A DNA stretch of 64,000 nucleotides from Candidatus Pullichristensenella stercorigallinarum (GTDB lineage Bacteria; Bacillota; Clostridia; Christensenellales; Aristaeellaceae): contig DVFZ01000100.1 in assembly GCA_018712945.1 (NCBI GenBank), positions 1 to 64,000 on the forward strand. Direction: 5' to 3'. The notes under the pieces were generated by a model. It saw nothing but the letters and a program-made list of their open reading frames with translations, searched no databases and had not been told where the DNA came from. Shown here piece by piece: positions 26,204-56,620 of the stretch; the first letter of the stretch is position 1; each line of letters begins with the position of its first letter. The position numbers and the translations under genes were made by a program.

Positions 26204-26378
26204 TGGCTGGAAAGCCGCTTCGCCATAGACAGCGAGCGCGTATGCTCAATGGCCTTCGGGCCGCTCGCCGAGGCGCAAAGGAAATTGTGTTTGCAACGCC
26301 CTTGCGCCATGCGCAGGGGCTTTTTTATGGGACATCCCATCAGCCGTCATTTGGGACGGGACAGGAGGTGTCAATGCA
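26204..26378 (+). ncRNA. Ribosomal protein L10 leader (autoregulatory mRNA element)
   Basis: About 170 bases of GC-rich, foldable leader between the consensus promoter and rplJ. Segments such as CTGGAAAGCCGCTT and GGCCTTCGGGCCGCTCGCCGAGGCG are typical of the element bound by the L10-L12 complex. It ends in an attenuator stem (26298-26320) followed by six Ts. Excess L10-L12 would bind the leader and favour termination. The identification is from position and the attenuator rather than a covariance model. Confidence 0.7.
26298..26326 (+). terminator. Attenuator terminator in the L10 leader
   Basis: Ten-base-pair stem GCCCTTGCGC/GCGCAGGGGC (26298-26307 with 26311-26320, one G-U pair), a three-base loop and T6. 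It lies 50 bp before rplJ. Confidence 0.8.
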
Positions 26379-33627: not shown

Positions 33628-33681
33628 ACGGAACGGCACGGGGACGGCGGGGCCGCCGCCGTGCGTTCCATGCTTTCAACG

Positions 33682-33920
33682 GGGCGGCCGAAGGCTGCCT
33701 CAGAGCGCTGACAAAGCCTGCAAACGCAAAAATTGCCCTGAACAAAGAGAAATCAGAGGCAATTTTTGCTTCCTGCGTCAGCTGCGCTTGCGGCCTGCGG
33801 TCACTTACGTCCATGTAAGCTCCCTTGGCTGCAAGTTTGCTTCCTTGTCTTGCAGGCTTTCTCATCGCTCTGGCAGTCTGTTGACTTTGTCAACATCCTG
33901 GGGCGGCCGAAGGCCGCCTC
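33682..33920 (+). repeat. Dispersed structured intergenic repeat, copy A
   Basis: A 200-bp body (33701-33900) lies between two 20-bp direct repeats, 33682-33701 and 33901-33920, differing at one base and each able to fold as GGCGGCC-GAA-GGCCGCC. Inside the body: an outer stem AAAGCCTGCAA (33713-33723) with TTGCAGGCTTT (33850-33860); a 12-bp stem GCAAAAATTGCC (33726-33737) with 33758-33769; a hairpin CTTAC-GTCCAT-GTAAG near 33803-33819; and TGTTGAC-TTT-GTCAACA at the end. Copies B (37105-37360, inverted) and C (56389-56620) share the layout. It separates khpA from rimM and carries no credible gene. Confidence 0.9.
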
Positions 33921-37104: not shown

Positions 37105-37360
37105 GGCCGCTCCGCCAAATGGCGGGGCGGCTTCAGGATGTTGACGAAGTCAACAGACTGCCAGAGGGATGAGAAAGATTGCAAGACAAGGAAGCAAACT
37201 TGCAGACAAGGGAGCTTACATGGACGTAAGTGACCGCAGGCTGCAAGTTTGCTGACGCAGTAAGCGGAAATTGCTTTTCCATTCCTTTTTGAGAAAGCAA
37301 TTTTCGCGTTTGCAGGCTTTATCAGCGCTCTGCGGCCGCTCCGCCAAATGGCGGGGCGGC
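37105..37360 (-). repeat. Dispersed structured intergenic repeat, copy B (inverted)
   Basis: A 199-bp body (37134-37332) read leftward aligns along its whole length with copy A. It is bracketed by two identical 27-bp direct repeats (37105-37131 and 37334-37360), each a hairpin CCGCTCCGCC-AAAT-GGCGGGGCGG, different in sequence from the brackets of copy A. The central stem is perfect here: GCAAACTTGCAG (37194-37205) with CTGCAAGTTTGC (37241-37252). The second stem reads GCTTT/AAAGC where copies A and C have GCC/GGC, a paired change on both arms. Located between the DUF1292 and alkyltransferase-like genes, opposite to their direction. Confidence 0.9.
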
Positions 37361-37383
37361 CTTTCGACATTCAGGGAGGACGC

Positions 37384-49332: not shown

Positions 49333-50001
49333 ATGAAGATTGCGCGTTACATTGATCACGCGGTGCTTAAGCCCGCCATGACGCCCGAGGAAGTGCGAAA
49401 TGCCATCCAGCTCGGCATCGACAACGACGTGTACTCCGTATGCGTGCAACCGCGCGACATTGAATTGGCGCTGAAGATGTGCAAGAACACGAATACGCTG
49501 GTTTCCTGCGTGTTGGATTTCCCGCATGGCTGCGGCGGCGCGGAGGCCAAGCGCGCGGCGGCGCGCGCCTACGCGGAAATGGGCGTGCATGAGATCGACA
49601 TGGTAATGAACTATGGCGCCGCCAAGGGCGGCGATTGGGCCGTTGTGCGCGCGGAGATTTCCGGCGTGGTCGAGGAAGCGCATGCGCGCGGCGTTCTGGT
49701 TAAAGTAATTTTTGAAACCTGCGAACTGGACGAGCGCACCATCCGCGAAGGCGTGGATGTCTGTGTGGATGTGGGCGCGGACTTTGTCAAGACCTCCACT
49801 GGTTTTGCCGCCAAGGGCGCGACCCCGGAAGCAGTGCAGGCCATGGTTTCGCAGGCGGCGGGTCGCATCCGCGTCAAGGCTTCCGGCGGCATTCGCACCA
49901 TCAATGATGCGCGCGGCTATGTGGAAATGGGCGCGGAGCGCTTGGGCGTGGGCTTTACCACTACTCCCGCGCTCGTGGCCGCGGACGAAGAAAGCAAGTA
50001 A
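49333..50001 (+). CDS. deoC: Deoxyribose-phosphate aldolase
   Basis: 222 residues. RYIDHAVLKPAMTPEEVRNAIQLGIDNDVYSVCVQPRDI, CVLDFPHGCGGAEAKRAAARAYAEMGVHEIDMVMNYGA, VKVIFETCELDE, and the Schiff-base lysine in FVKTSTGFAAKGAT. Splits 2-deoxyribose-5-phosphate into acetaldehyde and glyceraldehyde-3-phosphate in deoxynucleoside salvage. It precedes nfnAB by 63 bp with no terminator. Confidence 0.95.
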   Translation: MKIARYIDHAVLKPAMTPEEVRNAIQLGIDNDVYSVCVQPRDIELALKMCKNTNTLVSCVLDFPHGCGGAEAKRAAARAYAEMGVHEIDMVMNYGAAKGGDWAVVRAEISGVVEEAHARGVLVKVIFETCELDERTIREGVDVCVDVGADFVKTSTGFAAKGATPEAVQAMVSQAAGRIRVKASGGIRTINDARGYVEMGAERLGVGFTTTPALVAADEESK

Positions 50002-56388: not shown

Positions 56389-56620
56389 GGCCGCCGGGCA
56401 TCTTCGCCCAGCGGCCGCAGAGCGCTGACAAAGCCCGTAAACGCGAAAATTGCCCTGATAAAGAAAGAGTCAGAGGCAATTTTTTCTTCATGCGTCAGCT
56501 GCACATGCAGGCTGCGGTCACTTACTTACGTCCATGGAAGCTCACTTGCCTGCAAGTTTGCTTCCTTACATTCATCAGCCATCAGGCGCTTTTGCCCGGC
56601 AGTCTGTTGCGTATTGTAAA
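56389..56620 (+). repeat. Dispersed structured intergenic repeat, copy C (degenerate at the right end)
   Basis: Left bracket hairpin GGCCGC...GCGGCC (56389-56416), then the body from CAGAGCGCTG (56418). It keeps the AAAATTGCC/GGCAATTTT hairpin with inner CTGA/TCAG, the CATGCAGGC/GCCTGCAAG stem and GGCAGTCTGTTG, but the right part (56565-56620) has drifted and no right bracket is seen. Same strand as the preceding ABC operon. Confidence 0.85.

Follow-up and report, generated by a model that had tools for sequence, protein, structure and literature searches.

A 200-bp multicopy element flanked by duplicated terminator-like hairpins in Candidatus Pullichristensenella stercorigallinarum

Between khpA and rimM, with trmD next in line, the genome of Candidatus Pullichristensenella stercorigallinarum carries a strongly folding 200-bp element that is present in three copies in the 64,000-nucleotide stretch of contig DVFZ01000100.1 analyzed here (the window). 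The locus raises the question of what kind of element this is, how it came to occupy its sites, and whether its fold serves its movement or something else.

Copies in the window and in related genomes

Copy A occupies positions 33701 to 33900 of the plus strand (246 bits with a covariance model), begins with CAGAGCGCTGACAAAGCC and ends with GACTTTGTCAACATCCTG; its interior holds an outer stem, stems II and III, the latter carrying the core GGTCACTTAC-N6-GTAAGCTCCC, and a right terminal hairpin. Copy B, on the minus strand at 37134 to 37332 (210 bits), follows a gene for a putative small acidic protein and precedes a reading frame that may encode a putative alkyltransferase-like protein, and copy C, on the plus strand at 56418 to 56611 (104.5 bits), lies behind an ABC-transporter ATPase gene. 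The initial annotation had described a three-copy repeat, alignable end to end between A and B and in large part in C. The first alignment holds over the full length and the second over about the first 146 bases, the left three quarters of copy C being intact and its right end diverged and decayed. The repeat itself was borne out and proved larger than claimed, with at least 40 copies in the host genome and with relatives across the order.

In the host draft genome (2.96 Mb in 130 contigs), 40 copies among 82 candidates were scored at E ≤ 1e-62, and exact matches to the core pattern numbered 40 versus 0 for the reversed control, so that the similarity is not due to chance. It traces to neither a coding exon nor a known Rfam family, none of which matched the element or its core above the gathering score. 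An ordinary feature of the window, a ribosomal protein L10 leader (RF00557, 48.1 bits), lies at 26205 to 26335. By DNA similarity, 15 of 150 genomes contain the element, and the exact 24-base core pattern occurs in four MAGs, those of Candidatus Pullichristensenella stercoripullorum, Ca. P. avicola, Ca. Faecivicinus avistercoris, and an uncultured Clostridia bacterium. Phage and plasmid collections searched with the element DNA gave no match, and viral contigs gave 0 matches to the exact 24-base core. Most of the genomes compared are short-read MAGs, in which copies frequently fall at contig ends and swaps of flanks occur (L002, L013, L103).

Whole-hairpin duplication at the insertion sites

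The initial annotation overlooked the boundary of the element, a duplicated hairpin that sits exactly at both ends, and did not recognize terminator hairpins as the sites targeted for insertion; its span of 33682 to 33920 already takes in both hairpins of copy A. The left one (GGGGCGGCCGAAGGCTGCCT) lies at 33681 to 33700 and the right one (GGGCGGCCGAAGGCCGCCT), followed by CTTGTCAT as at the empty site, at 33901 to 33919, both on the plus strand. Copy B, read in the orientation of the element, has its left-hand hairpin at 37333 to 37361 and its right-hand hairpin at 37105 to 37131, both on the minus strand. At copy C, a left-end hairpin (GGCCGCCGGGCATCTTCGCCCAGCGGCC) occupies 56389 to 56417 of the plus strand, and no right hairpin is recognizable beside the decayed right end.

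A strong hairpin stands on each side of the copies in general, with a sequence that is specific to the site and mostly identical left and right. For 52 of the 53 copies, a hairpin finder located a hairpin within 0 to 3 bases of each end; the median energies were -20.7 and -19.6 kcal/mol, versus -4.3 at random window positions. Among host copies, 25 of 34 passed the ungapped duplication test, as did 12 of 20 from relatives, versus 2 of 1122 and 0 of 380 mismatched left/right pairs, respectively. At the strict threshold, the same hairpin is found on both sides at 40 of 52 sites, and several sites below it visibly carry the same one. As the hairpin is site specific and agrees between the two sides of most copies, the repeats of 19 to 40 bp around the element are target-site duplications of an entire hairpin. 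Some copies have unrelated left and right hairpins, at least two of which are explained by exchanged partners (L002/L013/L103), with others unexplained.

Empty sites, which the initial annotation had proposed to look for at orthologous loci, exist in sister genomes for both A and B, with one hairpin each. In G006 and G001 (L128, L132), khpA is followed by a single hairpin, CTTGTCAT, and rimM, with no element, and in G002 and G003 (L191, L192), site B reads ...AAAGGCCGCCC...GCGGCCACCGGCTCCC, again with one hairpin and no element, versus hairpin-element-hairpin within the same flanking sequence in the window. These single-hairpin sites, set against the occupied sites, demonstrate insertion with duplication of the hairpin. 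A flank query for further empty sites covered 10 sites, among which site B was clean and L026 proved to be an occupied orthologue; at L010, L017, L024, L025, and L003, the intergenic region is not conserved in relatives and is uninformative on empty sites, L004 and L005 gave no usable matches, and L020 gave none at all.

A T-tract follows the right hairpin at 25 of 52 sites, an A-tract precedes the left hairpin at 23 of 52, and one or the other is present at 40 of 52, which makes the sites terminator-like. The near-even split between the two sides agrees with the earlier remark that the orientation of the element varies between genes, and it argues against an orientation-dependent cis-regulator.

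One host copy (L101 1999 to 2201; host C53:29198 to 29400) lies between 23-bp direct repeats that agree at 20 of 23 positions and form no hairpin, so a palindrome is perhaps not strictly needed for long duplications. At L107, L030, L022, L059, and L050, the two flanking hairpins carry the loop in opposite orientations, which records naturally how loops flip within short palindromes. Inversion by transposition itself was dropped as the simplest account of these five sites, given an orthologous insertion (L026/L185) with the loop inverted in one genome only, from which it follows that inversion can come after insertion; template switching within the palindrome is a suggestion for its source.

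Relation to IS1182 elements

To account for these features, we propose, with considerable confidence, that this element of about 200 bp is a MITE mobilized in trans by an IS1182-family DDE transposase, targets terminator-like hairpins, and duplicates the whole hairpin. A length too short for a transposase, the copy number, terminal inverted repeats, and a duplication backed by empty sites all agree with a MITE. Ends that are related, although inexact, and the same target choice and type of duplication as in autonomous elements place it, as judged from sequence, with IS1182. The initial annotation had suggested a nonautonomous mobile or REP-like family; mobility is upheld by the copy number, the empty sites, the target-site duplications, and the related autonomous element, whereas the REP-like part is not supported, given the terminal inverted repeats and the target duplication.

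The host genome encodes one intact IS1182-family transposase (L031, 437.9 bits to NF033551), which is of the DDE type with Pfam domains DUF772 and DDE_Tnp_1_6, together with 16 fragments. The ends of these host elements, mostly CAGACCATTGACAAAC, likewise abut hairpins, and in 5 cases, left and right ends on separate contigs could be paired by an identical hairpin. In relatives, six full-length IS1182 elements are flanked by perfect 20- to 30-bp hairpin repeats, and whole-hairpin duplication was found in 12 of 12 close members examined on finished plasmids (nine, then three more), from Salinivibrio, Rhizobium, Aminobacter, Sphingobium, Alkalihalophilus (ISBspe1-like), Brevibacillus, and Enterococcus. 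A further close element (L214) is disrupted, and the five distant IS1182 members tested (L215 to L219) gave no hairpin duplication. At L106, L033, and L040, neighboring copies of one hairpin are occupied by an IS and by the MITE.

The terminal inverted repeats of the MITE are imperfect (CAGNNNNYTGACAAANNC), with CAGAGCGCTGACAAAGCC and CAGGATGTTGACAAAGTC matching at 13 of 18 positions. The MITE left end agrees with a Rhizobium IS1182 end at 16 of 18 positions in the window and 17 of 18 in a copy from G021.

Several findings stand against this reading. No exact autonomous parent was found, the IS1182 ends of the host's own genome agreeing with those of the MITE at only 12 to 14 of 18 positions. 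G003, which is reported to be 100% complete and holds many copies, has no recognizable IS1182 transposase; the helper may have been lost, or the IS may have collapsed during short-read assembly. At L031, the sole host IS1182 copy contained in full on one contig, the left and right hairpins differ, and at L101, as described above, there is no hairpin.

An nhmmer search of the IS1182 loci in relatives found no match to the MITE interior. In the host, a fossil IS1182 (L047/L116, C98, about 49430 to 49570) is the only IS1182 with MITE-like sequence at its left end, MITE positions 4 to 91 and 149 to 194 lying directly before the transposase N terminus, and it may be a record of how the MITE originated. 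A 58-bp almost perfect palindrome (L115 389 to 446; host C67:30388 to 30445) consists of two IS1182 right ends (CAGAGCATTGACAAACCCCTGCATTT...), possibly a minimal element made of ends alone.

In the pathway that we envisage, the transposase would recognize the imperfect terminal repeats of the MITE in trans, and the transpososome would choose hairpins resembling rho-independent terminators by structure, not sequence. The transposon 3' ends would then be joined to the hairpin's 5' foot on both strands, in the geometry of an extruded cruciform, leaving the hairpins as single-strand gaps whose filling would copy the whole hairpin and yield hairpin-element-hairpin; joining at the 3' feet would instead delete the hairpin. 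After such an insertion, a T-tract would still lie behind the right hairpin and an A-tract still ahead of the left one, so that termination would probably be preserved in both directions and insertion would be nearly harmless. Duplication of the whole hairpin thus offers a simple reason for the high copy number, as the terminator should survive on both sides.

Structure-guided targeting by a DDE transposase is rarely documented. IS1272 and TnSha1, IS1182-family elements of Staphylococcus, target stem-loops or terminators by structure with no sequence consensus, and IS1272 deletes (replaces) the target stem-loop and leaves no target duplication (PMC4923244, PMC5678879). A duplicating pathway by way of the 5' foot was drawn in 2017 as hypothetical pathway b, without examples (PMC5678879); our hairpin duplications fit it, with the cruciform as its presumed intermediate. 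The elements described here share with IS1272 an IS1182-family transposase, structure-based targeting of stem-loops, and insertion downstream of genes. Unlike IS1272, they duplicate the whole stem-loop, and the hairpin on both sides does not agree with transposition of the stem-loop-replacing type. The published example thus removes the hairpin, whereas here dozens of insertions within a single genome, and elements from several phyla, show the opposite outcome, together with empty sites, a contrast that makes attack at the 5' versus the 3' foot testable by comparison of transposase subgroups. The novelty of the duplication itself is lowered by the long or variable direct repeats that ISfinder material presumably gives for some IS1182 members.

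Other known elements share some of these properties. MITEPye1 of Paracoccus yeei is an IS1182-related MITE with 4-bp direct repeats and 1 to 3 copies per chromosome (PMC11578231). Like it, the present element is short, gene-less, and intergenic, with IS1182-type terminal repeats and a stable fold; unlike MITEPye1, for which no hairpin targeting is reported, it has 19- to 40-bp hairpin duplications and at least 40 copies. The ISBspe1-like IS1182 of Alkalihalophilus plasmid pBpOF4-01 (L212) is autonomous and lies within a perfectly duplicated terminator hairpin, and its end, CAGGCTGTTGAGAAAGTC, agrees with the MITE right end at 16 of 18 positions; unlike the MITE, it is full length with a transposase, and the inner core was not seen in it by eye. 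BOX, RUP, REP, and ERIC-type repeats (PMC10969869) are likewise small, multicopy, intergenic, and strongly folding, but no passage found in that paper concerns insertion at, and duplication of, whole terminator hairpins.

The inner fold and alternative readings

The interior of the element is conserved in a way that exceeds what a MITE requires, which counts against a plain MITE reading. Over 46 copies, 92.0% of cells are paired and 27 pairs have changed on both sides, with two-sided change in 117 cells versus a shuffle mean of 30.6 and 18 to 45 in slid-structure controls. Pairs were counted on the majority-of-MFE structure, as RNAalifold collapsed the structure on the hand-made alignment; the core regex demanded five paired positions, and the perfect pairing in that set, being partly circular, was excluded as evidence. 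The paired change that the initial annotation had noticed in the second stem, GCAAAAATTGCCCTGA/TCAGAGGCAATTTTTGC in A versus GCGAAAATTGCTTTC/GGAAAAGCAATTTCCGC in B, is real, and its reading as selection on structure is strengthened by the 27 covarying pairs. Between genera, stems II and III are 53 to 56% identical and still paired, and the outer 5' arm (89%), core loop (82%), and linker (83%) are more strongly conserved. Stems that diverge and yet pair, alongside a conserved loop and linker, point to selection on the fold and the loop sequence beyond the needs of the ends.

The inner core also recurs across the order with different outer arms. The covariance model gave matches in 48 of 396 genomes from the order. 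Among the strong matches are elements of other families with CAG-type ends and duplicated hairpins (L228, L232), and others have in common only the core GGTCAC-NTAC-N6-GTAN-GCTCCC and linkers, within long outer arms of differing sequence. Antisense copies in the window score 32 to 38 bits with the model, and matches below about 45 bits without the core sequence were therefore left uncounted. In a class-wide sample, the exact core pattern was present only in the host genome and in G809 (another family, 4 copies). Seven IMG/VR contigs also carry this pattern, which is looser than the exact 24-base core.

This conservation could mean that the inner domain (the outer stem, stems II and III, the GGTCAC...GCTCCC core of stem III, and the linkers TGCGTCA and TTCCTTGTC) is a functional structured RNA family, or folded ssDNA, that IS1182-like ends have spread, with mobility secondary. 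The covarying pairs, the stems that stay paired as they diverge around a conserved loop and linker, the lack of an Rfam match, and the reappearance of the core within different arms throughout the order, as well as its presence in G809 and a few IMG/VR contigs, all fit such a function. It is harder to reconcile with an orientation that is unbiased relative to terminator T-tracts and with a gene neighborhood that is not fixed among copies; the structure might equally serve transposition, and the weakest covariance model matches are unreliable, given the antisense scores. We regard this reading as possible but somewhat doubtful, and the core as a candidate family of structured nucleic acids that has no Rfam entry.

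The remaining alternatives turn on the hairpin duplication. REP/BIME-like palindromes mobilized by RAYT or another Y1 single-strand transposase would also be palindromic, intergenic, and multicopy, and the host genome contains a Y1_Tnp gene. However, Y1 transposition makes no such terminal repeats or target duplications as are present here, and a Y1_Tnp search of the copy-rich G003 gave no match; REP/RAYT membership failed on the target duplication and on this absence, and we hold it to be very unlikely. Derivation from a group IIC intron would explain the choice of site, as such introns insert just downstream of terminator hairpins, but intron homing gives no target duplication, whereas here duplication extends over the whole hairpin, the inverted repeats at the ends are shared with a DDE transposon, and there is no Rfam intron match, all of which makes this origin extremely improbable. 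As implausible, in our estimate, is that the duplication arose artefactually, through assembly of a short-read MAG or through homologous recombination. The many copies at contig ends and the flanks swapped between some copies would suit such an error, but neither the single-hairpin empty sites in sister genomes nor the perfect duplications around related IS1182 elements on finished plasmids would.

A MITE moved by an IS1182-type transposase remains our preferred reading of the window element, which could at the same time represent a single branch within a superfamily of mobile structured elements that spans the order. The core, read as folded RNA or ssDNA by a protein or a host process, would then be the common property, and IS1182-type ends only one vehicle. 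This broader view is conceivable, and we lean slightly against it. The shared core comprises a CTGCGTCA-like linker, GGTCAC, a 5-bp hairpin, GCTCCC, and a TTCCTTGTC-like linker, and the arms and stems of the members turn over freely with pairing kept.

In another family of the order, at least four units with the core stand in tandem (L229; G100:C11:20481 to 23660). On two IMG/VR contigs, which are classed as viral, elements with the core are found a short distance past the ends of long reading frames (L265 5944 to 6028 and 9995 to 10079; L267 5002 to 5088), and on L265 the two copies have similar outer arms.
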